Assembly: GCA_949538625.1 (NCBI GenBank)
Contig: CATISD010000112.1
Span: 1 to 49,262 of the forward strand
Source of the DNA: Acidimicrobiales bacterium AG-410-I20
GTDB lineage: Bacteria > Actinomycetota > Acidimicrobiia > Acidimicrobiales > MedAcidi-G1
Reading direction: 5' to 3'
DNA length: 49,262 nucleotides
The position numbers and the translations under genes were made by a program. Position 1 is the first letter of the stretch; the number at the start of each line of letters is the position of its first letter. Shown here one piece after another: positions 6,640 through 48,538 of this stretch. The notes under the pieces are model-generated. The model saw nothing but the letters and a program-made list of their open reading frames with translations. It was not told the DNA's origin and did not search any database.

Positions 6640-7131
6640 GTGAGCAAAAAAGCAGAATCTCTTGGTTTATGGTTTGAAGAATTACAGGTCGGTCTAGTCA
6701 TTCAGCACTCTATAAAGCACACAGTCTCGGAATCCGAGAATGAAGAGTTTTGTTTAATGACACATAATCCGCAACCTTTACATCTCGACCCAAGTTTTGC
6801 GGCAAAATCAGTTTTCGGACAACGAATAGTTAACAGTTTATTGACTCTGGGTTTAACAGTTGGAGTAAGTGTTGAAGACACCACCTTAGGAACTACTGTG
6901 GCCAATCTAGGATTTGAAGAGACCGTTTTCCCGAATCCAGTTTTCTTAAATGACACGTTAAATTTTGAAACTGAAGTTAAGCATTCTCGGATATCCGCAT
7001 CACGACCCGAAACCGGAATAGTCACCTTTGAACATCGTGCTTTCAAACAAAGTGGAGAGCTCGTTTGTCGCTGTCGACGAAATGCACTAATGCACTGCAT
7101 GCCCTCTGTGAACAAACAAAGTAATGAATAG
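6640..7131 (+). CDS. MaoC-family hotdog-fold hydratase
   Basis: This 163-residue MaoC-like protein has the Asp/His hydratase motif region. N-P-x-P-L-H-x-D is visible as NPQPLHLDPSFA (about residues 43-54), followed by the FGQRIVNSLL helix. Relatives hydrate enoyl-CoA esters. Single-domain members in actinobacteria often act on short or branched acyl-CoA, such as mesaconyl-type substrates. It starts at GTG, with CACAAT six bases before it and no Shine-Dalgarno sequence. The next gene begins eight bases after its stop, so these two probably share an mRNA. Confidence 0.85.
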   Translation: MSKKAESLGLWFEELQVGLVIQHSIKHTVSESENEEFCLMTHNPQPLHLDPSFAAKSVFGQRIVNSLLTLGLTVGVSVEDTTLGTTVANLGFEETVFPNPVFLNDTLNFETEVKHSRISASRPETGIVTFEHRAFKQSGELVCRCRRNALMHCMPSVNKQSNE

Positions 7132-7139
7132 AGAGTTTC

Positions 7140-7787
7140 ATGACAATTTATAATGATGCACATTTAACTAGTCTCAAAATAAATGATGACTCCAATAATT
7201 GGCGTGCAGCCGGATTCGATATTGTGGAATCAGATCAGGGAGTTTCAACCTCTCGCATCGGAAATGTGTTACTCCAATTTCAGAAAGAGCCTGCCGGTCA
7301 TGGAATCCATGCAATCGGGACAAACAATTTAGAGAGAGTTATTGACGGTCTTACATTTTTTGTTGATCCCTGGATAGAGAACAGAAATAACGATCAGTTC
7401 AATCATTCAAATCATGTAAGTCGGATTGATCACCTTGTGGTTACAACTTCTGATTGTGACCGAACAACGCAAGCTTTAGAAACAGTTGGCATTGAGGCTC
7501 GCAGAGTAAGGGCTTTCGGAAAAGAAGAGTCAAAGATGAGGCAAACATTTTTTTGGCTCGGAGATATCATTCTTGAGTTAGTTGGGCCCGACACGAAATC
7601 TGGTGATGAGCCAGCGAAAATTTGGGGTCTTGCTCTTATTTCAGAACAAATAGAAAAAACAGTTGATTTCTATGGAGAGGCAGCGACCCCATTAAAACCC
7701 GCAGTGCAACCCGGGAGATATATCACAACAGTGAAGACTAGAAATTTTGGCATTGCAGACGCTTTAGCGATTATGACACCAAACTAG
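7140..7787 (+). CDS. VOC/glyoxalase-like domain protein
   Basis: This 215-residue protein has a recognisable vicinal-oxygen-chelate half: SRIDHLVVTTSDCDRTTQALE near residue 97 and FFWLGDIILELVGP near residue 139. A second, less conserved half carries WGLALISEQIEKTVDFYG. The pattern of HLVV followed by an E in the beta strand is typical of metal-binding VOC modules. The reaction is not known. The gene follows the MaoC gene by eight bases with a GAGAG ribosome binding site and may work with it on CoA or keto-acid intermediates (inference). Confidence 0.75.
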   Translation: MTIYNDAHLTSLKINDDSNNWRAAGFDIVESDQGVSTSRIGNVLLQFQKEPAGHGIHAIGTNNLERVIDGLTFFVDPWIENRNNDQFNHSNHVSRIDHLVVTTSDCDRTTQALETVGIEARRVRAFGKEESKMRQTFFWLGDIILELVGPDTKSGDEPAKIWGLALISEQIEKTVDFYGEAATPLKPAVQPGRYITTVKTRNFGIADALAIMTPN

Positions 7788-35953: not shown

Positions 35954-37594
35954 ATGAACGTACGCGACAGTCTGATTGAAGCTATTGAACAAGCTCTACA
36001 TGATTTAAAAGTGGACTTCTCCTCCCAGGAGATCAACTTGGAACGCCCTGCGAACACTGATCATGGAGATTGGTCTACAAACGTTGCTCTTGCAACTGCT
36101 AAAAACCTTAACCGCAATCCGCGCGATCTAGCCTCAGAAATTGTTGAAGCCTTAGAACAGCAATCCCCTGATTACGTTGAAGAAATCCAAATCGCAGGAC
36201 CCGGCTTCATCAATTTCAAACTAAATGACACTTGGCTTCATGAAGTTCTTATCCAAGTCGTTACTGCGGGTATAGATTCCTGGGCATCGCACAAAGTTGG
36301 TGAGAATCAAAGAGTCATAGTGGAATTTGTAAGCGCTAATCCCACCGGGCCGCTTCATGCAGGGCATGGAAGAGGAGCTTGCTTTGGGGATTCAGTAGCT
36401 CGTTTATACCAAAAATGTGGCTATTCAGTTCAACGTGATTTCTACATAAACGATCGAGGTACACAAATGAGGCTTTATGTGGAATCACTTTCAGCTAGAG
36501 CCTCTAATACAGAAATTCCCGAAGGCGGATACCACGGAGAGTATGTAAGAGAATGGGCAGCAGAAATGCCATCAGATGCCGATCCATTTGAATGGGGATA
36601 TCAACGAGCCTTAAGATCACATCGAGAAACATTGGAAGCGCTAAATATTCATTTTGATAATTGGTTCTCAGAAAGATCGATGGTTGATTCGGGGGCAATT
36701 GAATCAACGCTCAATGATTTACAAGCAGCTAATGCAGTATTTGAGTCAGATGGAGCAATGTGGCTCCAAAGTACCCAATGGGGAGATGACAAAGATCGAG
36801 TTTTAGTTAAATCCGATGGGGAATACACATACCTGCTCCCAGATATCGCTTATCACCGAGATAAATTTGAACGAGCGGATCTACTGGTAAATGTTTGGGG
36901 AGCCGATCATCACGGATACATCACTCGAATGCATGCAGCCATGTCTGCTTTAAATCACAAACCAGAAGACCTTCAAATAGCGATCACTCAGATGGTCCGT
37001 TTACAGCGTGACGGCGAAGAGGTAAAAATATCAAAACGCACTGGAGACATAGTTGAACTATCTGAAGTCACACAAGAAGTTGGTTCCGATGCCGCACGAT
37101 TCACTTATTTGCTGTTATCAGTTGACTCTTCACAAAATTTCGATCTAGAACTAGTGACTAAGCAAGTTAATGACAATCCTGTTTTTTATGTTCAATACGC
37201 ACATGCGAGAATTCATTCAATAATGAAAAAAGCAGATGAGGTTGGGGTAGTGCTCTCATCAATTGAAAAGGCAAATTTGTCTTTACTCAGTAACCCGCGT
37301 GAGTTGGCAATACTCCGGGCATTACAAGAACTACCTGAAACCGTTCTTCGTTCCACACAGGAAATCGCCCCACATCGAATAACCAATTGGGCACGAGATT
37401 TCGCATCTTTATTTCACAGTTTCTACCACGACTGTCGAATAATTGGGGAAGATGTAGACATTGAACTTACTGAAGCAAGATTATGGCTAGTTGAGGCATC
37501 ACGCATCGGATTAGCAATTTCGCTTGATCTCTTAGGTGTAAGCGCTCCGAAAGAAATGTGGAGAGAAACTGAGAATGGAGAATTAAATGGCTGA
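35954..37594 (+). CDS. argS: Arginyl-tRNA synthetase
   Basis: This 546-residue class I enzyme has an N-terminal additional (Add-1) domain and the HIGH-type motif NPTGPLHAGHGRG (about residues 130-142). The KMSKS position is KISKRTGD (near 357). The C-terminal helical anticodon-binding domain ends normally. It charges tRNA-Arg. It begins a block of genes in the same order as in Mycobacterium (argS-lysA-hom-thrC). The stop lies inside lysA (eight-base overlap). Confidence 0.97.
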   Translation: MNVRDSLIEAIEQALHDLKVDFSSQEINLERPANTDHGDWSTNVALATAKNLNRNPRDLASEIVEALEQQSPDYVEEIQIAGPGFINFKLNDTWLHEVLIQVVTAGIDSWASHKVGENQRVIVEFVSANPTGPLHAGHGRGACFGDSVARLYQKCGYSVQRDFYINDRGTQMRLYVESLSARASNTEIPEGGYHGEYVREWAAEMPSDADPFEWGYQRALRSHRETLEALNIHFDNWFSERSMVDSGAIESTLNDLQAANAVFESDGAMWLQSTQWGDDKDRVLVKSDGEYTYLLPDIAYHRDKFERADLLVNVWGADHHGYITRMHAAMSALNHKPEDLQIAITQMVRLQRDGEEVKISKRTGDIVELSEVTQEVGSDAARFTYLLLSVDSSQNFDLELVTKQVNDNPVFYVQYAHARIHSIMKKADEVGVVLSSIEKANLSLLSNPRELAILRALQELPETVLRSTQEIAPHRITNWARDFASLFHSFYHDCRIIGEDVDIELTEARLWLVEASRIGLAISLDLLGVSAPKEMWRETENGELNG

Positions 37595-38858
37595 TCCTAT
37601 TCTTCCGCGATTATTACCTGACAATACTACGATCGATGAAAATGGCCGCGGCTCCATAGGAGGGTGTGATCTAGGTGCGTTAGCAGAGGAATTTGGTACC
37701 CCTCTTTTTATTTACGACGAGAATCATTTGAGAGCCCGATGTCGAGAAGCTGTTGAGGCTTTCGGAGAAGGTGTTGCATACGCCGGAAAAGCCTTCTTAT
37801 GCGGTGCTATGTCTCGTCTCGTTGTAGAAGAAGGTATGAATATTGATGTAGCAACTGCTGGTGAGCTTTATATGGCTCTCCATGCAGGGGTAGATGGAAG
37901 TCGCTTGATTATGCATGGGAATAATAAAAGCGAACAAGAGTTACGAATGGCAATAGAAGCTGACGTTTCACGAATCATCGTTGACTCGTTTGACGAGCTA
38001 GATCGGCTACAAGTTCTTTATCAGGAAACAGGAATCTCCCCAAAAGTTTTGCTTCGCATTACTCCCGGTATAGAAGCGCATACACACGAATTTGTGTCAA
38101 CGGGTCAAGACGATTCAAAGTTTGGATTTACCGTCTCGACAGGAATCGCTTCTGAAGCCATAGAACGAGCTGCACAGACAGAAGCTGTAGAGCTGGTAGG
38201 TATCCACGCTCATATCGGCAGCCAAGTCTTTAAAGTGGACTCTTTTGTTCGGGCTGTCGAGGTTATGGCAGAATTCTCCAATCCTCTTAACTTGCCTGAA
38301 CTCTCTATAGGCGGAGGGCTTGGTGTTTCCTATTTAGAAGAAGACAATGCGCCCTCAATTACTGAATGGGGGAAAGCGGTAAAATCTGCCTGTTTGCAAT
38401 CCAACATAAAGGCCAAAGTCACAGCTGAACCTGGACGAGCTATTGCTGCGTCTGCAGCAGTTACTTTATACCGAGTAGGAACAATCAAACATCTTCAAGG
38501 ACTTCGAACGTATGTTGCCGTTGATGGAGGCATGAGCGACAATCCGCGCCCCGTTCTTTATGGCTCCGGTTACGAGACGTTCCTTCCCCGATCTATGAAT
38601 GCTGTTCGGGATCAATCAATTCGAGTAGTGGGGAAACACTGTGAGTCTGGCGACCTTCTAGTTCGTGAAGGATGGGTTCCATCCGATATGAAGGTCGGTG
38701 ATCTTATTGCAACACCAGTAACAGGCGCTTATGGCCACTCAATGGGATCAAATTACAATCAAATTTTGCGACCCCCTGTAGTTTTTGTAAAAGAGGGAGA
38801 AGCTAAAGAAGTTGTAGCCAGAGAAACTTTTGCGGACTTAGTTCGACGAGAACGTTAA
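37587..38858 (+). CDS. lysA: Diaminopimelate decarboxylase
   Basis: This 423-residue PLP enzyme has fold type III. The PLP lysine is in YAGKAF (Lys68), the HIGSQ segment follows, then GGGLGVSY (phosphate loop). EPGRA lies near residue 281 and CESGD near 351 holds the active-site cysteine from the partner subunit. It makes lysine from meso-diaminopimelate. It overlaps argS by eight bases and is followed after 42 bases by hom. Confidence 0.97.
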   Translation: MADPILPRLLPDNTTIDENGRGSIGGCDLGALAEEFGTPLFIYDENHLRARCREAVEAFGEGVAYAGKAFLCGAMSRLVVEEGMNIDVATAGELYMALHAGVDGSRLIMHGNNKSEQELRMAIEADVSRIIVDSFDELDRLQVLYQETGISPKVLLRITPGIEAHTHEFVSTGQDDSKFGFTVSTGIASEAIERAAQTEAVELVGIHAHIGSQVFKVDSFVRAVEVMAEFSNPLNLPELSIGGGLGVSYLEEDNAPSITEWGKAVKSACLQSNIKAKVTAEPGRAIAASAAVTLYRVGTIKHLQGLRTYVAVDGGMSDNPRPVLYGSGYETFLPRSMNAVRDQSIRVVGKHCESGDLLVREGWVPSDMKVGDLIATPVTGAYGHSMGSNYNQILRPPVVFVKEGEAKEVVARETFADLVRRER

Positions 38859-38900: not shown

Positions 38901-40199
38901 ATGAAATCATCTTCAATTCATATAGGACTGCTTGGTTGTGGCACAGTCGGAGCCGCGCTTGTTCACTTATTAACGGAACAGCGCGATTCTGTTAAACATC
39001 GCACAGGTTTAGATCTAAGTATTGAAGCAATCGTTGTTAAAGACTTAAATAAAAAGCGCTCAATACCACTACCGGATGAAGTTTTAACCACTGATGCATC
39101 ATCCGTCATAGGTAATCCCGCAATTAACTTGATTGTTGAAGTAATGGGAAGCATTGAACCAGCCCGCGAACTCATACTTAATGCGTTAAATTCCGGTCAA
39201 CCTGTTGTAACGGCAAATAAAGAACTATTAGCGCAGCACGGAGCAGAACTTTATGCCGCTGCAGAAAAATCAGGAGTTGATTTACTCTTTGAAGCGGCAG
39301 TAGCAGGTGCTATTCCAGTAGTGAGGCCACTGCGTGAGTCATTGTCTGGGGAGCCAATTACTCGAATTCGCGGGATTATTAATGGCACAACAAACTTCAT
39401 ATTGACTCGTATGACGCAAGACGGTGTTTCTTTCGACGAGGCGTTATTAGAAGCACAGAATCTCGGATACGCAGAATTAGATCCAACTTATGATGTTGAA
39501 GGGTATGACGCGGGTGCGAAAATAGCGATCCTCGCAACGCTTGCGTTTGGAGCAGAAGTAACTTCTGGGGATGTTCAACATGAAGGCATTTCAGGAATAA
39601 CTGTTGAAGACATAAAGTTTGCTGATCGCTTAGGTCATTGCATCAAGCTATTGGCAGTCGCAGAGCAAAAAATAAACCAAGAAGAAAAGCCAGAAATTGG
39701 GGTAAGGGTTTATCCGGCATTAATACCTTTGGATCATCCTCTTGCAGCTGTCAATGGCAGCTTTAACGCTGTATTTATAGAAGGTGATGCTGTCGGTGAA
39801 CTTATGTTTTATGGACCAGGGGCTGGGGGAAGACCAACGGCATCTGCTGTGTTCGGTGATGTAATTGATGCCTCTGGGAATTTGCAGCGTAGCCATGGCT
39901 CATTAATTGGCGCACTTGATAGGCCCCTTATATGCCCATTGGAGAGTTTTGAATCATCGTTTTATTTAAATTTGAAAGTTGAAGATCAACCAGGTGTGTT
40001 AGCGCGGGTTGCGGAAGTTTTTGAAAATCATGGTGTCTCTATCCAATCTATGGAACAAGAAGGTATGGCTTCAGAGGCAAGACTAACTTTCATTACACAT
40101 TCAGTTCGTGAGAAAGACTTGCTTTCTACTCTTGAAAGCCTCAAAGCACTAGATGCTGTAAGCAATGTCGATAGTGTGTTACGAGTTGTTGGCGATTAA
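38901..40199 (+). CDS. hom: Homoserine dehydrogenase
   Basis: This 432-residue enzyme has the NAD(P) motif GLLGCGTVGAALV (about residues 9-21) and the catalytic region ANKELLAQHG. GIINGTTNFILTRM is the homoserine dehydrogenase signature. A C-terminal ACT domain (FYLNLKVEDQPGVLARVAEVF) is likely to mediate threonine feedback. It reduces aspartate semialdehyde to homoserine. AGGAG lies about 14 bases before the ATG, rather far. thrC starts two bases after the stop. Confidence 0.97.
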   Translation: MKSSSIHIGLLGCGTVGAALVHLLTEQRDSVKHRTGLDLSIEAIVVKDLNKKRSIPLPDEVLTTDASSVIGNPAINLIVEVMGSIEPARELILNALNSGQPVVTANKELLAQHGAELYAAAEKSGVDLLFEAAVAGAIPVVRPLRESLSGEPITRIRGIINGTTNFILTRMTQDGVSFDEALLEAQNLGYAELDPTYDVEGYDAGAKIAILATLAFGAEVTSGDVQHEGISGITVEDIKFADRLGHCIKLLAVAEQKINQEEKPEIGVRVYPALIPLDHPLAAVNGSFNAVFIEGDAVGELMFYGPGAGGRPTASAVFGDVIDASGNLQRSHGSLIGALDRPLICPLESFESSFYLNLKVEDQPGVLARVAEVFENHGVSIQSMEQEGMASEARLTFITHSVREKDLLSTLESLKALDAVSNVDSVLRVVGD

Positions 40200-40201
40200 C
40201 T

Positions 40202-41578
40202 ATGCGTTACATCAGTACCAGAGGTGCGGCTCCTGTCCTTGAGTTCAACGATGTTTTGCTCGAAGGTTTAGCAAGTGATGGGGGTCTTTATGTACCTGAA
40301 GTTTGGCCAAAGTTTTCTAATTCTGGAAATGGTGACTACGTAGAAACCGCAATTGAAGTCATGACGCCATTTATTGGATCTTCTATCCCTCAAAAAGTCT
40401 TTGAAGAAATAGTTTCTGATGCCTATTCAACTTTCCGTCACGAAGAGATAGCCCCACTTGTTGACATGGGCCAGGGTATTTATTTACTTGAATTATTTCA
40501 TGGTCCTACGCTCGCATTCAAAGATGTGGCTCTTCAATTGGTAGGGAAACTTTTTGAATATGAACTAGGTAAACGAAATAAGAAAGTAACAATAGTTGGA
40601 GCAACTTCTGGTGACACGGGTTCAGCAGCTATAGAAGCCTGTCGAGATCAAGAGAATGTTGAAATGTTCATTCTTCACCCCGCTGGACGTGTATCTGAAA
40701 TACAACGCCGCCAGATGACAACAGTTGAGTCAGCAAACATCCACAATATTGCTATCGAAGGGACGTTTGATGACTGTCAAGATCTAGTCAAAGAAATGTT
40801 CGCAGACATAGATTTCCGTCAACAAATGCAACTTTCTGCAATTAATTCGATTAATTGGGCCAGAGTAATGGCTCAGATTGTTTATTTCGTCGTAGCAGCA
40901 GAGAGATTGGGGGGGCGTCATTCATCTGTATCTTTTTCAGTGCCAACGGGAAATTTTGGAAACGTTTTTTCAGGGTACGCCGCTCGAAGAGGCGGCCTTA
41001 ATATAGACCAGTTAGTTGTGGGTTCAAATACAAATGATATTCTTACAAGGTTTTTTGAAAGTGGAACTATGAGAATAGATGAAGTGACACCAACTACTTC
41101 TCCGAGTATGGATATACAAGTTTCTTCAAATTTTGAGAGGCTTTTATTTGAGTTACTTGACCGCGAGGGCCCAAAAGTAGATGAGATACTCAAAAGATTC
41201 AGAAAAGAAAAAGAAATGAGTATTTCACCTGACCTGCATAATGAGTTAGCTAAAGAATGGAGTGGTGCTCGTTTTACTGACGACCAGGTAAAACAATGCA
41301 TACTTGAAGAGGCTGAGAATTCAGGAATTATTTTGGATCCGCATAGCGCTATTGGAGTTCTCGCTGGCCGTAAGTGTCGTAAAACCAAAAATATTCCAAT
41401 GATTGCTCTCGCGACTGCTCATCCGGCAAAATTCCCTGAAGCGGTAGAAGATGCCACTGGAGTGCGTCCAAAGTTGCCTCCTCACTTAAAGGATTTGATG
41501 GAACGACCAGAACAGTTCGACAAACAACCTAATGATTTACAAACAGTTCAGAATTACATTAAAGAGATGGTTAAATGA
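40202..41578 (+). CDS. thrC: Threonine synthase
   Basis: This 458-residue protein is of the longer class, with the N-terminal Thr_synth_N segment RYISTRGAAPVLEF. The PLP lysine is in HGPTLAFKDVA (near residue 107), GATSGDTGSAA is the phosphate-binding loop, and PTGNFGNVF comes later. It converts O-phosphohomoserine to threonine. The presence of this enzyme requires a homoserine kinase, and the following gene is the only candidate here. The stop overlaps that gene by four bases. Confidence 0.96.
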   Translation: MRYISTRGAAPVLEFNDVLLEGLASDGGLYVPEVWPKFSNSGNGDYVETAIEVMTPFIGSSIPQKVFEEIVSDAYSTFRHEEIAPLVDMGQGIYLLELFHGPTLAFKDVALQLVGKLFEYELGKRNKKVTIVGATSGDTGSAAIEACRDQENVEMFILHPAGRVSEIQRRQMTTVESANIHNIAIEGTFDDCQDLVKEMFADIDFRQQMQLSAINSINWARVMAQIVYFVVAAERLGGRHSSVSFSVPTGNFGNVFSGYAARRGGLNIDQLVVGSNTNDILTRFFESGTMRIDEVTPTTSPSMDIQVSSNFERLLFELLDREGPKVDEILKRFRKEKEMSISPDLHNELAKEWSGARFTDDQVKQCILEEAENSGIILDPHSAIGVLAGRKCRKTKNIPMIALATAHPAKFPEAVEDATGVRPKLPPHLKDLMERPEQFDKQPNDLQTVQNYIKEMVK

Positions 41579-42717
41579 AATACGTTGTATGCATTCCGGA
41601 TGGATGTGCGGATTTACCCGTTCCTGAATTGGGTGGACGCACGCCTCTCGAGGAAGCAAACACGCCTAATCTAGATGCGCTAGCGGCAAGAGGCACAGTA
41701 GGTCGTGCGCAAGTTATTCCAGAAGGTTTGCCGCCTGGCAGCGATGTAGGCAATATGTCTATTTTTGGTTTTGATCCTGCTCAATTTCATACTGGACGGG
41801 CCCCAATTGAAGCAGCAGCGTTAGGCCTTTCATTAGCAGATACTCAAATTGCGTTTCGCTGCAACTTAGTGACAGTGGAAAATGGCGTAATGATTGACTA
41901 TGCGGGTGGGAGCCCTAGTTCTGATTCTGCAGCAATAGTCATTAATCAGTTGAACGAAGAGTTAGGCAACGAAGAAGTTTCATTTCACCCTGGCGTGAGT
42001 TTCCGACATTCTTTGGTAGCGCCATCAGATTGGATTGAGGCCACTTGCATTCCTCCACACGACCTAACTGGAGATCCGCTTGTTTTGCCAACTGGTTCAG
42101 GATCAGACCCACTTATTCAAATCATGGAAGACTCAAAGCAAGTATTAGCAGAGTCAGATCTTCAGGCAACACAAGCTTGGTTGTGGGGGCAGGGGTTTAT
42201 GCCAAAGATGCCAAGCTTTTTTGAAATGTACGGCAAGTCAGCTGGCTTAGTTACTGCTGTTGATTTATTGCGTGGGATAGCAACGCTCACGGATGTTGAA
42301 GTCTGCAACATACCTGGAGCGACTGGACAATGTGACACTGACTATGAAGGTAAAAGAGATATTGCTCTGAAACGTTTACAAGAGGGATTAGATTTATTCA
42401 TCATTCATGTTGAAGCGACTGATGAAGCTGGCCATGCAGGTGATGTAGAAGCTAAAGTTCAAGCCCTTGAAAATTGGGATCAGCGAATTTTGAAAGATCT
42501 AATACCTGGGCTTGATGCTCTAGGGCCATGGAAAATGCTTTTACTGCCTGACCATGCAACTCCTTTAACTACTCGGACACATACTTCAGACCCAGTTCCA
42601 TACCTCTTGGTAGATTCACAAGAAGATGGTCCTGGGGGAGTCTTTACCGAAAATGGGGTTGCTGATACTCCTTTAGTTCGCGGCCATCACCTCTTGCCTT
42701 CCTTGTTAAAAATGTGA
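41575..42717 (+). CDS. ApgM-like phosphoglycerate mutase family protein, proposed homoserine kinase
   Basis: This 380-residue alkaline-phosphatase-superfamily protein of the archaeal-type, cofactor-independent phosphoglycerate mutase family starts with a metal-binding CIPDGCADLP. The nucleophile segment is GSDVGNMS (Ser56), and the C-terminal metal ligands are in HVEATDEAGHAGD and LLPDHATPLTTRTHT. A branch of this family has been proposed as a non-orthologous homoserine kinase. It sits between thrC and rho, exactly where thrB lies in Mycobacterium. It overlaps thrC by four bases. No GHMP-type ThrB is in the window. A role as phosphoglycerate mutase remains possible. Confidence 0.8.
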   Translation: MKYVVCIPDGCADLPVPELGGRTPLEEANTPNLDALAARGTVGRAQVIPEGLPPGSDVGNMSIFGFDPAQFHTGRAPIEAAALGLSLADTQIAFRCNLVTVENGVMIDYAGGSPSSDSAAIVINQLNEELGNEEVSFHPGVSFRHSLVAPSDWIEATCIPPHDLTGDPLVLPTGSGSDPLIQIMEDSKQVLAESDLQATQAWLWGQGFMPKMPSFFEMYGKSAGLVTAVDLLRGIATLTDVEVCNIPGATGQCDTDYEGKRDIALKRLQEGLDLFIIHVEATDEAGHAGDVEAKVQALENWDQRILKDLIPGLDALGPWKMLLLPDHATPLTTRTHTSDPVPYLLVDSQEDGPGGVFTENGVADTPLVRGHHLLPSLLKM

Positions 42718-42802: not shown

Positions 42803-42979
42803 GTATCAGACCGAAGCCGGCGAAATCGGCTGACGAAACCCTTCGTTTCAAACGAAATCTGTGTCAATTCTTCTTAGACTTGTTCACACTTCGCCATTTG
42901 ATCCATACGGACCAAACTGTCCTGATCAATCCTGATGAGGACATCCAACCGGGCACTTGCCCTCGACAGACCAAGGTGT
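42803..42979 (+). promoter_or_regulatory. Structured 5' leader of rho
   Basis: The leader contains AGCCG-loop-CGGCT (42815-42831). Two mutually exclusive pairings follow: GAAAC (42835-42839) with GTTTC (42845-42849), and TTCGTTT (42842-42848) with AAACGAA (42850-42856). A C-rich, loosely structured stretch comes next. Rho genes are commonly autoregulated by termination in the leader, so this is a candidate region. Confidence 0.45.
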
Positions 42980-44590
42980 ATGAGCATGGACTCCACCCAA
43001 TTAGAACGCGAAGCATTGGAAACAAAAGATCGCGATGAACTTGTAACAATAGCTACAGCACTTGGCGGTAAGCCAGGTTCGCGAGCGCGCAAAGCAGAGA
43101 TAGTTGATTTAATTCTTGAAATGACAGCAGGATCCAAAGGGACATCAAATGGGTCCTCGGCTAAATCGACTGAAAAGGCAGAAGAAACAGAAGAGGAGCC
43201 TTTAGCAGAGTGGGAAATCGAAGTAGCCACCGAAGAGGCCACTGAAGAAGTTACCGAAGAGGCCAAAAAGTCCAATAAAGAAAAGACCGAGAGTTCTGAT
43301 GAAAAGAAAGAAGATGATTCTGAAGAACGCGGTTCAAGAAATCAAACAACACAAAATCGACAGAACGACCAAGCAGGGCCAGGCAACCGGCGTCGACGTA
43401 GACGCGGGGGTCGTGATCAGGCATCCGATGAACCTTGGGATGGCGAACCTGTTCCCGTTGAAGGTTACGTTGACCTACGTGATGAGGGATACGGATTTTT
43501 AAGAACAACTGGGTTTAAACCTTCTAAGACAGATGCCTACATATCTGTAAAACAAGTTCGCCAACTAAACCTTCGTAAAGGGGATTATTTAGTCGGAGGT
43601 TCACGCCCACCTAATCGAAGTGAAAAAAATCCAGCATTGCTAAGAATCGATACGATAAATGGGGGAGACCCAGAAGCTATAAAAGATCGTCCAAAGTTTG
43701 AAGATCTCACTCCTCTTTTCCCTGACGAAAAACTCACAATGGAAATTGCGGATGACCCTGGGAATATGACAGCTCGAATAATCGATCTTCTTTCACCAAT
43801 CGGGAAAGGACAGCGCGGACTTATCGTTTCTCCTCCTAAAGCAGGGAAAACTACGATTATGAAACAGGTCGCCCGTTCAATCGAAACAAACAATCCTGAA
43901 GTGAAGCTTATTGTTTTGCTGGTAGACGAGCGCCCCGAAGAAGTCACAGATATGCAGCGGTGGCTCGCGAAGGGGGAAGTAGCGGCTTCTACTTTCGATC
44001 GACCTAGCGAAGAACATACGCAAATCGCTGAATTGACAATAGAACGTGCAAAACGCATGGTTGAAAATGGAGAGGACGTAGTGATTATTCTTGATGGGAT
44101 CACTCGCTTATCAAGGGCCTATAACCTGGCGGCCCCAGCGACTGGAAGAATTATGTCCGGTGGTGTTGACAGTGGGGCTTTATACCCGCCAAAACGGTTC
44201 TTCGGAGCGGCTCGAAATGTTGAAGAGGGAGGATCTCTGACTATCCTCGCTACAGCATTAGTGGAAACAGGTTCCAAAATGGATGAAGTTATCTTTGAAG
44301 AATTCAAGGGGACGGGCAATATGGAACTTCGTTTAGATAGGCGAATAGCTGAGCGGCGTATCTATCCGGCGATAGACGTAGATGCATCTTCAACCCGGCA
44401 TGAAGAGCTCTTATTTGAACGCAAACAACTTAATCAAGTTTGGAAATTGCGGCGAGTCCTAAATGGGCTAGCAACAGATACTGGAGGGGCGGCAGCTGGG
44501 TTAGAGCTTCTCACTGATCGCTTAAAAACATTTAATAATAATGAAGAGTTTTTAGCTGAAGTAGCTAAAGGCCCAAATATGGGAGCATAA
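42980..44590 (+). CDS. rho: Transcription termination factor Rho
   Basis: This 536-residue hexameric RNA helicase has an N-terminal Rho_N helix domain ([18 protein letters not shown]). A long low-complexity insertion of about 120 residues (acidic Glu/Thr blocks, then Asn/Gln/Arg with RRRRRRGGR) follows. Next come the cold-shock-like RNA-binding domain ([10 protein letters not shown]) and the ATPase, with Walker A PPKAGKTT near 284 and [10 protein letters not shown] near 367. Insertions of this kind are typical of actinobacterial Rho. ATG at 42980, after AAGG, is chosen. The frame is open back to 42935. Confidence 0.97.
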
Positions 44591-44959: not shown

Positions 44960-45961
44960 TTGTCTATTGAACCCGAGCGGCGCGCTGAACTCCTTAGAGG
45001 AAAACTCCTAGCCATAGTCGAATCAGCCGGGTATGAGATAGCGGATTCAGATGACAAAAATCAAACACATGATTCTGCGCTGCTTACAAAAGACAACTGT
45101 TGGTTGTTGGTAAATGATGAAACTCCGCAGTCCGCTTTAGGTAAAGGAATTCTCTTACTTTCACGTCATCCACACCTAGAACTGTGCTTGATATTTGAAG
45201 ACGCGATATCAGCAGGGGTAGCTGCACGTCAGGCCGCAGGGCTAAATATCAGATGTAAAGTCATGCTTTTGCATAATCAAACACTCACACAAGTGGACCC
45301 TTCTTCTTTCCCTAAACCATTTGAAATTATTCCGATAAGTGAAGAATTCCTCAGTGTATGTGAAGCTGCAGGAGTATCAGTAATTTGCGAAAATGGAACT
45401 TGGAGAGGTGAGATTCTGGGGCTTGAAGTTGTTCGGTTAGAAGGAGAAAATATTCAAATTGGTGTAGGGAGGTTTGATCGGGAAGCTGGCGAACTTTTAA
45501 ATTATGAAAGGTCGCTATTCGATCAACTAGTTTCAGCGTCAAACCAAATTCGTTCACAACGCAATGCAGAGGCAGGGTCTCACCCTTTAGCTACTTTGGC
45601 GAGAGAAAGGTGGCTTAGGCATAGTTTGCTAGAAGACCCATCAGTTGTTGGGTTAAAAGATGTGGAACCTATTGATTCAGTTCACGAAAGAGAAAATTTA
45701 AGAGACCCTTTCCCTGCAGCAGCTATAGGAAAAGATGAAGATCAAAAAAAAGTTTTAGTCGTATGCTCGGTAGGAGTTGATATTGCATTAGTTCCTTTAA
45801 CAGCGGAACTATCGCAGATACATCTTCCGGACCGCATCGTTATTGTTCTTCCACCTAAAGATCTTCTTCCTGTAATTCATACAATAAGTGAATTCTTAAA
45901 AGTCCCTTCTTCCCTCATTGGTATAGAGGGGGAATGGGCCTGCCCCACAGGAAGCGAATAG
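44960..45961 (+). CDS. Unknown protein between rpmE and prfA
   Basis: This 333-residue soluble protein starts at TTG after an AGGTG ribosome binding site. An N-terminal alpha/beta region (ELLRGKLLAIVESAGYEI, LLTKDNCWLLVND) resembles a restriction-endonuclease-like or response-regulator-like small fold only loosely. The centre has RGEILGLEVVRLEGENIQIGVGRFDREA and a helical LATLARERWLRHSL segment. The C-terminus has a Rossmann-like VLVVCSVGVDIALVPL. I do not recognise the family. It is absent from the equivalent Mycobacterium gene order. It ends 17 bases before prfA. Confidence 0.75.
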   Translation: MSIEPERRAELLRGKLLAIVESAGYEIADSDDKNQTHDSALLTKDNCWLLVNDETPQSALGKGILLLSRHPHLELCLIFEDAISAGVAARQAAGLNIRCKVMLLHNQTLTQVDPSSFPKPFEIIPISEEFLSVCEAAGVSVICENGTWRGEILGLEVVRLEGENIQIGVGRFDREAGELLNYERSLFDQLVSASNQIRSQRNAEAGSHPLATLARERWLRHSLLEDPSVVGLKDVEPIDSVHERENLRDPFPAAAIGKDEDQKKVLVVCSVGVDIALVPLTAELSQIHLPDRIVIVLPPKDLLPVIHTISEFLKVPSSLIGIEGEWACPTGSE

Positions 45962-45966
45962 AGCGG

Positions 45967-45972
45967 TACCCT
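45967..45972 (+). promoter_or_regulatory. Predicted leaderless -10 element of prfA
   Basis: TACCCT is followed by AATTTT and the ATG at 45979. It supports that start over the longer frame at 45934, and suggests an internal promoter within the block. Confidence 0.5.
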
Positions 45973-45978
45973 AATTTT

Positions 45979-47058
45979 ATGAAGGAACAGATTTTAAATC
46001 TTGAAAAAGAGCTAGGAGAAGCTGAAAAGCAGTTATCTGATCCTGATGTCATAGGGGATCCTTTGCTCTTAGAGAAAGCCGGGAAACGCTTAAAAGAGCT
46101 TGGGGACATACTAGAAGTAGGTCGGCCATTAAAGAGAATGTATGACGATCTTGAAGCAGCCAAAGAACTTGTTGAAATTGCAGATGATGAAGATAGGCAA
46201 CAGTTACGTCAAGAAGTTGAAGATCTGGAATTAAAAATTCCAGACTTTGAAGAGCAACTAAGACTTTTACTGCTGCCAAAGGATCCGAATGATGGAAGAA
46301 ATGTAATTCTTGAAATCAGAGGAGCAGAGGGTGGGGAAGAAGCAAACTTATTTGCAAGAGATTTACATGATATGTATTTGGGTTTTGCAAGTTTACATAA
46401 GTGGAAAGTTGAATCTTTAGGAACACAAGAATCCGATATGGGTGGTTATAGCGAAGTTTCGATTCTTATTAGTGGGGGAACTGCTTGGACGAGACTAAAA
46501 CATGAAGGTGGGGTTCATCGAGTTCAAAGAGTACCAGTCACTGAATCTCAGGGCAGAGTGCACACTTCATCTGCCACTGTGAGTGTTCTCCCTGAAGCTC
46601 AAGAAGTAGATATTGACATCTCAGATAATGATCTTCAAATAGATGTTTATCGTTCATCAGGGCCTGGAGGGCAATCAGTCAACACTACGGATTCAGCTGT
46701 AAGAATCACTCACCTGCCAACAGGCTTAGTTGTCGCTATGCAGGATGAGAAAAGCCAGTTACAGAACAAAGCGAAGGCGCTGAGAGTTCTGCGCTCCCGC
46801 CTGTTACAAAACGAACAGGACAAGCAGCAAGCTGAGGCGTCTGCGGCCCGGAAGGGTCAAGTAGGGACGGGCGGGCGATCAGAAAAAATAAGAACGTATA
46901 ACTTCAAAGAAAATCGGGTAACAGACCATCGAATAGGGCTCACTCTTCATAAATTGGAACGAATTCTGACCGGAGACCTCGACGAAGTCGTAGATGAACT
47001 ATTAACAACCGAGCGCTCAGAGCAATTAATGAAAAAAACAGAAACAGATAGTTCATGA
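45979..47058 (+). CDS. prfA: Peptide chain release factor 1
   Basis: This 359-residue RF1 has a helical N-terminal domain, the codon-recognition region around RVPVTESQGRVHTS (PxT motif PVT), and the GGQ motif in SSGPGGQSVNTT (near residue 230). It releases peptides at UAA and UAG. The start at 45979 gives the usual RF1 length. The frame extends to 45934 but would overlap the previous gene. The stop overlaps prmC by four bases. Confidence 0.97.
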   Translation: MKEQILNLEKELGEAEKQLSDPDVIGDPLLLEKAGKRLKELGDILEVGRPLKRMYDDLEAAKELVEIADDEDRQQLRQEVEDLELKIPDFEEQLRLLLLPKDPNDGRNVILEIRGAEGGEEANLFARDLHDMYLGFASLHKWKVESLGTQESDMGGYSEVSILISGGTAWTRLKHEGGVHRVQRVPVTESQGRVHTSSATVSVLPEAQEVDIDISDNDLQIDVYRSSGPGGQSVNTTDSAVRITHLPTGLVVAMQDEKSQLQNKAKALRVLRSRLLQNEQDKQQAEASAARKGQVGTGGRSEKIRTYNFKENRVTDHRIGLTLHKLERILTGDLDEVVDELLTTERSEQLMKKTETDSS

Positions 47059-47924
47059 AATCTGACTCTGTAAAGTCGGCAGTTTCTTGGCGAACTTTAC
47101 TTGATGAAGCGATTCAGAACTTGAGTGAAACTGGATTCTCTGAAATGGAAGCGCGCTGGATCACAGAAGAAGCAGCAGGGTGCCAGTTAATGGGTGCTTC
47201 TCTTGAAGCGCTAGTCACAAATAGAGCAATGGCACATTATGACAACCTCATAAGCCGACGTCTAAATGGCGAACCTCTTCAATATGTTCTGGGACACTGG
47301 CAATTTCGAAAATTGGATCTAATGGTAGATCAACGTGTTCTGATTCCACGCCCAGAAACCGAAGTCTTAGTAAATCATGCTTTGGAAGAGATCGATCGGC
47401 AGGGAAATGAGGTTCTTGTAGCAGATTTGGGCACTGGATCTGGCGCCATAGGACTTTCAATTGCCGTTGAAAGAATCTCTACTCAAGTCTGGTGCACAGA
47501 TCTCTCAGAAGAAGCCTTAATGGTTGCGAGAGCCAACCTTGCAGGACTCGGTCAACCTGCAAAAAGAGTAAGTTTATGTCAAGGCTCATGGTTTGAAGCA
47601 CTACCAAAGTCCCTTCAAGGAAAACTTGGATTAGTAGTTTCCAACGCTCCATATATTCCAACTTCAGAAACTCTTCCGCCGGAGGTCAAGGACTGGGAGC
47701 CTTCCATAGCTTTATACGGAGGCAAAGAAGGAACAGATTATCTCCAGAAACTCATTCAAGAATCTCCCTCCTGGCTGGCTCCAAAAGGAGCGCTCATTTT
47801 AGAAATGTCACCAGAACAAACAGAAAGTATGTCTAGTTTGGCTTTATCCAAAGGTTTCAATGAGGTTCTTATAGGTTCAGATCTTGCTGACAAACCCCGA
47901 CTGCTAGTAGCCCGCAAGTCATGA
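47055..47924 (+). CDS. prmC: Release factor glutamine methyltransferase PrmC
   Basis: This 289-residue protein has a helical RF-binding N-terminus (ARWITEEAAG; LQYVLGHWQFRKLDL) followed by an AdoMet Rossmann domain. DLGTGSGAIGLS lies near residue 123. The catalytic motif is SNAPYIP (near 196), the NAPY form of the usual NPPY that also occurs in other actinobacteria. It methylates the glutamine of the GGQ motif in RF1 and RF2. Overlaps of four bases with both prfA and sua5 show coupled translation. Confidence 0.95.
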   Translation: MKSDSVKSAVSWRTLLDEAIQNLSETGFSEMEARWITEEAAGCQLMGASLEALVTNRAMAHYDNLISRRLNGEPLQYVLGHWQFRKLDLMVDQRVLIPRPETEVLVNHALEEIDRQGNEVLVADLGTGSGAIGLSIAVERISTQVWCTDLSEEALMVARANLAGLGQPAKRVSLCQGSWFEALPKSLQGKLGLVVSNAPYIPTSETLPPEVKDWEPSIALYGGKEGTDYLQKLIQESPSWLAPKGALILEMSPEQTESMSSLALSKGFNEVLIGSDLADKPRLLVARKS

Positions 47925-48538
47925 CGAACCGGATCCTGAACATCAAAGAAAACTGGGAATTAGCAAAGTCTGAAACGATTAGAGAGTTACAACTAGGAAA
48001 TCAAGTGATTCTGCCTACAGACACGGTTTACGGGATAGCGGCGCTTTCATCAGATATTGAAGCCGTAAACGGAATTTTTGAAATCAAAGGACGATCTTTT
48101 AACCAGGCATTACCTGTACTTGTTGCCGACTTTGATCAAGCCAACCAAATAGTAGCTAAAGACTCAATACCTGAAGGAGTAAAGAACTTTTGGCCAGGAC
48201 CCTTAACTGTCGTTGTTCCCCAACATCCTGAAACACCTATTTATGTTGGATCAGAGAAACATACTGTGGGAGTCCGATGCCCAGATCATGATTTCGTAAG
48301 GAGCATTGCCGCGGAAATTGGATCGCTGACTGTTACTTCTGCAAACCTTTCTGGCGTACCTACGCCAGAAACAGCGCCATTAGTGGCTAAACAACTAGGT
48401 AAAGACCTACTTGTATTAGATGATGGGCCTTGCTCGGGTGAGCCCTCAACGCTTATAGACCTTTCCTCATTAAATCCAAAAATTCTCCGCTTAGGAGAAA
48501 TTAAAGAAGAAGATCTTTCCGAAGCAGGGCTTATTTAA
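47921..48538 (+). CDS. ywlC: L-threonylcarbamoyladenylate synthase (Sua5/YrdC/YwlC)
   Basis: This 205-residue YrdC-domain protein has LPTDTVYGIAAL (about residues 31-42), the KGRSFNQALPVLV segment that binds threonine and ATP, and SANLSGVPTPE. It makes the threonylcarbamoyl-AMP used for the t6A37 modification of tRNAs reading ANN codons. It lacks the extra Sua5 C-terminal domain. It overlaps prmC by four bases, in the same order as in Mycobacterium. Confidence 0.94.
   Translation: MTNRILNIKENWELAKSETIRELQLGNQVILPTDTVYGIAALSSDIEAVNGIFEIKGRSFNQALPVLVADFDQANQIVAKDSIPEGVKNFWPGPLTVVVPQHPETPIYVGSEKHTVGVRCPDHDFVRSIAAEIGSLTVTSANLSGVPTPETAPLVAKQLGKDLLVLDDGPCSGEPSTLIDLSSLNPKILRLGEIKEEDLSEAGLI

Follow-up and report, generated by a model that had tools for sequence, protein, structure and literature searches.

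The window, by which we mean the whole 49,262-nucleotide stretch of DNA that was analysed, lies on contig C112 of a MAG of 1.50 Mb (85% complete, 149 contigs), the relatives of which are Acidimicrobiales of the MedAcidi-G2B type. It contains a conserved gene cluster, entirely on the forward strand, that begins with argS (arginine-tRNA ligase, 35954-37594), lysA (diaminopimelate decarboxylase, 37587-38858), hom (homoserine dehydrogenase with an ACT domain, 38901-40199), and thrC (threonine synthase, 40202-41578). These are followed by an intact open reading frame (ORF) of 380 amino acids (aa), hereafter named X (41575-42717), whose ATG lies within the stop codon of thrC (ATGA), confirming the four-base overlap claimed previously. 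Downstream are rho (transcription termination factor, 42935-44590), an 84-aa rpmE-like ORF (ribosomal protein L31, 44654-44908), prfA (45934-47058), prmC (47055-47924), and sua5 (47921-48538), where the conserved cluster ends. X was characterized by family models, tree, alignment, and predicted structure; the other genes were assigned using NCBIfam/Pfam, except for the rpmE-like ORF, the translation of which was read by eye. The earlier note had equated this gene order with that of Mycobacterium, X being the sole difference. The order stands, but X is not the sole difference because thrC is here of the long type (Thr_synth_N and THR4_C, 458 aa), whereas the thrC adjoining thrB in Actinomycetes is of the short type. 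In addition, a 333-aa ORF between rpmE and prfA (44960-45961, forward strand) had been missed. This ORF has no Pfam match, and its position is kept across the family, with ∼40% identity beyond the genus and ∼30% in other Acidimicrobiales.

The arrangement around X is far from chance. Among 80 named relatives, thrC is directly 5' of X in 75, and rho comes next in 67 of these 75. The closest named relatives by X identity are Acidimicrobiales AG-410-I20 (95%) and the marine actinobacterium MedAcidi-G2B (84%). As assessed by NCBIfam/Pfam, X matches ApgM-type models and no GHMP kinase, which agrees with the earlier description of an ApgM-like metalloenzyme, rather than a GHMP-type ThrB, between thrC and rho. 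X scores above the cut-off of NF003242 (PRK04200; 435.6 vs 426 bits, over residues 1-378) and of TIGR00306, which covers apgM in the wide sense (403.6 vs 320 bits), but below that of PRK04024, which covers true ApgM (223.8 vs 489 bits). It also falls short of TIGR02535, named "proposed homoserine kinase" (416 vs 446.3 bits), a cut-off that lies above the scores of all 40 X proteins of the order; X may work like the TIGR02535 family although it lies outside that model's cut-off. Neither TIGR00191 (the ThrB GHMP homoserine kinase) nor TIGR02137 (ThrH) gave a match to X. The linkage to threonine genes by which the NF003242 clade is recognized is present, since X overlaps thrC and the linkage is kept in relatives. 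The AlphaFold2 model of X is confident (pLDDT 94.9), and its best PDB matches found by Foldseek are the ApgM structures 2zkt (E 1.8e-31), 3idd, and 3kd8.

Alignment of 63 rows from the ThrB2 clade, to which X belongs, with 11 rows from the ApgM group shows a shared catalytic core and a set of clade-wide substitutions. Both groups have the same nucleophile and metal-binding residues (S56, D9, D283, H287, D326, H327, and H336), among them the metal ligand D9 (codon at 41599-41601) and S56 (41740-41742), which is at the position of the serine that accepts phosphate in this superfamily. Within the metal motif HxExxDxxGH, E280 (42412-42414) is Glu in 63/63 ThrB2-clade rows, whereas all 11 ApgM-group rows have Lys (HxKxxD). 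Similarly, in the W202-L203-W204 stretch (42178-42186), position 202 is invariably Trp in the ThrB2 clade vs Leu/Ile/Thr in the ApgM group (Leu in 9/11), and position 204 is Trp/Phe in 63/63 rows vs Arg/Lys. Pro160 is found in every ThrB2-clade row where all 11 ApgM-group rows have Asp, position 109 is Tyr/Phe/His instead of the Arg seen in 9/11 ApgM-group rows, and D230 is specific to the ThrB2 clade (63/63). Judging from their place within the catalytic motifs, some of the clade-specific residues may contact the substrate.

The tree placement proposed previously was carried out with the same 74 rows, in a quick analysis in which several ApgM rows are long-branched and the ThrB2 part outside Actinomycetota consists of only two Bacteroidota proteins. 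These stand in for the studied Bacteroides protein BT2402, being homologues from the same genus (Bacteroides finegoldii) and the same order (Parabacteroides distasonis), both encoded as thrA-X-thrC. X proteins of Actinomycetota group with them within the ThrB2 clade, apart from the ApgM group (SH-aLRT 100). Furthermore, X proteins of Acidimicrobiia, including that of G076, which lies outside the order and has a short thrC as well as X, form a single clade (SH-aLRT 100). X thus looks old in the class.

We searched the source genome for homoserine kinases and for other phosphoglycerate mutases. No ThrB was detected with TIGR00191, although control searches were positive in 14/14 genomes, and neither a diverged ThrB query (from G042) nor TIGR00938 identified a homoserine kinase in this genome. 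ThrH (TIGR02137) had no match among any of its proteins. A GpmA-type phosphoglycerate mutase is present (222 bits over 163 model positions), truncated by the end of contig C90 and full-length in several sister species, and X is therefore dispensable for glycolysis. Matches to GpmI (TIGR01307) were weak superfamily cross-matches and were discarded. The earlier note had named a true thrB elsewhere, together with the absence of any other phosphoglycerate mutase, as the outcome that would speak against it, and the opposite was found on both counts.

The same pattern extends across the family. X is present in 35 of its 37 genomes, and ThrB in none (0/37); the two MAGs without X have no complete thrC either, so that what they lack is the locus as a whole. 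In a sample of 61 genomes of the order, 40 have X, 15 have ThrB, and six have ThrH above its cut-off, and X never occurs together with ThrB or ThrH. Of the 25 families in this sample, six have X, 18 have ThrB and/or ThrH, and one has none that we found (X vs ThrB/ThrH by family, Fisher p = 4e-5, assuming independence of the families, which holds only in part). Three of the four genomes first counted as having neither ThrB nor X proved to have ThrH. The exception, G054 (L088, Acidimicrobiales, 96% complete), encodes hom and a long thrC, with an ABC-transporter-like gene pair between thrC and rho; ThrB, X, and ThrH were not found in it, making it a candidate carrier of yet another homoserine kinase.

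Across the phylum (296 genomes, counted per genome and not per independent event), X occurs without strong ThrB, which we defined as E ≤ 1e-25, in 55 genomes and with it in eight, one of them borderline. ThrB occurs without X in 200, and 33 have neither, nine of which have ThrH; X and ThrH were found together in 0/296. Because X and strong ThrB co-occur in seven genomes from two deep families, four of which have thrC-X-thrB in one operon, X is not a strict either/or partner of ThrB. Two side observations were made. Several public records labelled Bifidobacterium breve, Thermoanaerobacterales, or Acidobacteria (L165, L184, L185, L206, L169) encode X proteins 63-67% identical to that of the window; their titles look wrong, the loci resembling Acidimicrobiia. 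Two deep Actinomycetota loci (L247, L249) encode a further ApgM-like group whose best model is PhpG (phosphonoformyl transferase), with scores of 446 and 415 bits, below the 545-bit cut-off.

What occupies the position after thrC differs between relatives. In Actinomycetes, the order is hom-thrC-thrB-rho (L268-L270, L272). In one deep family (f38), three states follow argS-lysA-hom: short thrC-thrB (L237-L241), long thrC-X (L242-L245), and long thrC-X-thrB (L217-L220, in G206, G301, G079, and G106). These states can naturally be read as the arrival of a thrC-X cassette, with thrB retained for a while and then lost, an order of events that we infer from the states observed. In three further genomes (G190, G223, and G243; L221, L255, and L256), X is divergent from thrC and ThrB is also present; in G190, ThrB is next to hom inside the main argS-lysA-hom cluster. 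The X protein of G190 has altered motifs, reading SSSAAC and WPFWPG. Within Acidimicrobiales, G052, which has neither ThrB nor X, displays thrC-thrH-rho, with a 200-aa ThrH (L087, positions 6755-7357 on the reverse strand of G052:C122) that scores above both curated cut-offs (PRK13582, 259 vs 133 bits; TIGR02137, 242 vs 223.4 bits). The ThrH of Pseudomonas aeruginosa has been characterized as a phosphoserine:homoserine phosphotransferase (PMC3910706 and PMC5764234, citing Singh et al. 2004). At the 13 loci inspected in ThrB-bearing Acidimicrobiales, thrB is elsewhere, not adjoining hom, thrC, or rho, and wherever hom-thrC-rho was seen (L092 and L093) it is closed up. A single slot can thus hold three unrelated proteins, two of which are from homoserine-phosphorylating families, and nothing else argues as strongly for the proposed function of X. 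These findings bear on the earlier proposal that thrB was displaced in place. Indeed, X occupies the kinase slot, ThrB is absent genome- and family-wide, and the slot is swapped between ThrB, X, and ThrH in relatives. A local replacement in this lineage is unsupported, however, because X is old in the class, forming one clade across Acidimicrobiia, it follows thrC in many deep Actinomycetota, and the thrC of the window is itself of another type.

Threonine synthase (ThrC) requires O-phosphohomoserine as its substrate, and an intact hom-thrC pair would be pointless without a supply of it. We propose, with a probability of roughly 0.83, that X makes O-phosphohomoserine for the threonine synthase whose gene it overlaps, standing in for ThrB. 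This proposal is based on genomic position, the absence of ThrB and ThrH, clade membership, the conserved catalytic core, and the clade-wide substitutions; substrate, donor, and phosphoenzyme step are deduced, the last from the superfamily. Two metal ions, bound by D9, S56, D326, and H327 and by D283, H287, and H336, would activate S56. This residue would be phosphorylated by a metabolite, not necessarily ATP, with PEP, a phosphoglycerate, and phosphoserine as candidates. The phosphate would then pass from S56 to homoserine, in a pocket where Glu280 and Trp204 would replace the Lys and Arg/Lys of ApgM. We counted against the proposal the missed TIGR02535 cut-off, the co-occurrence of X with ThrB, the incompleteness of the MAG, and the negative complementation result for BT2402 described below. 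A fuller version, to which we would give somewhat less than even odds, is that X is a homoserine phosphotransferase acting via a phosphoserine intermediate with a central metabolite rather than ATP as donor, that much of Acidimicrobiia makes threonine in this way, and that the slot after thrC is an exchange site of ThrB, ThrB2, and ThrH, the thrC-X-thrB tandems having been caught midway.

The most serious competitor, although an unlikely one, would leave X a place in threonine synthesis but give it a different task, for example as a threonine kinase for the cobalamin side chain, as has been proposed for CbiU of Dehalobacter, or as a partner of ThrC or of the handling of phosphohomoserine. The thrC-X-thrB tandems fit such a role, as do the families in which thrC and X are separate from hom-thrB. 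So does a TIGR02535 protein in a Dehalobacter corrinoid operon, for which threonine kinase activity was proposed (PMC4285132), and so does the failure of BT2402 to complement E. coli thrB, a personal communication that PMC7311316 cites. Against this, and in favour of our own proposal, BT2402 mutants of B. thetaiotaomicron need threonine in minimal medium (PMC7311316), the same slot can hold ThrH, a known homoserine phosphotransferase, and ThrC would be left without a source of substrate in genomes that have only X.

Less probable still, X could be a cofactor-independent phosphoglycerate mutase of the ordinary kind, lying in a threonine operon by chance while some other enzyme phosphorylates homoserine. 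That is the name NCBI gives to NF003242 ("cofactor-independent phosphoglycerate mutase"), and both the TIGR00306 score and the nearest solved structures, which are ApgM proteins, would suit it. However, the genome already has GpmA, the X clade has lost the invariant Lys and other residues of ApgM, it adjoins or follows thrC across phyla, and ThrB and ThrH are absent exactly where X occurs. That a true thrB was simply missed, as 85% completeness and 149 contigs might suggest, is very improbable considering that none of the 36 family relatives, many of them more than 90% complete, has ThrB, and that the sequence of the slot is complete and shows X there. Taken over hundreds of genomes, the comparison makes X very probably a homoserine-phosphorylating enzyme of an already proposed type.

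The idea of ThrB being replaced by this family has already been published (TIGR02535; PMC7311316 and PMC9026213), in line with the earlier note's statement that one branch was proposed as an alternative homoserine kinase. The proposal came from TIGRFAM curators (PMC7311316), and the 300 gut genomes with a predicted ThrB2 in PMC9026213 were all from Bacteroidetes or Firmicutes. Our literature search, which covered few subscription journals, found no biochemical proof of ThrB2 activity, no PhpG-type precedents, no case of ThrB2 in Acidimicrobiia, and no slot exchange between ThrB, ThrB2, and ThrH. X resembles the TIGR02535/ThrB2 proteins of Bacteroides (BT2402), Firmicutes, and deep Actinomycetota in sharing a clade with the Bacteroides/Parabacteroides thrA-X-thrC protein, adjoining thrC, having a distribution complementary to that of ThrB, and showing the same substitutions at ApgM sites. 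It differs in its lower TIGR02535 score, its length (380 vs ∼400 aa), and its setting in an actinobacterial argS-lysA-hom-thrC-rho cluster. With ApgM it has in common the fold and the Ser/Asp/His core, but neither the clade nor the residues discussed above. Genomic slot and proposed product are the same as for ThrB, although the folds are unrelated. ThrH, an HAD protein, is likewise comparable in its proposed product, possibly in using a metabolite rather than ATP as the phosphate donor, and in its slot in G052, but has an unrelated fold and a different nucleophile (Asp in HAD enzymes). The shikimate-kinase-like homoserine kinase DvMF_0971 of Desulfovibrio, demonstrated by complementation of E. 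coli thrB (PMC5764234), is also a non-orthologous replacement of ThrB, from a different family.

Gaps at ThrB are among the commonest in automated annotation of amino-acid pathways, and ThrB2 is still labelled "proposed", with records that read phosphoglycerate mutase. Comparison of the slot with ThrB and ThrH, together with the clade-wide residues E280, W202, W204, P160, and D230, provides independent support for the homoserine-phosphorylating function proposed for X, as well as targets for mutation. Many marine Acidimicrobiia should accordingly be scored neither as threonine auxotrophs nor as carriers of a second phosphoglycerate mutase.
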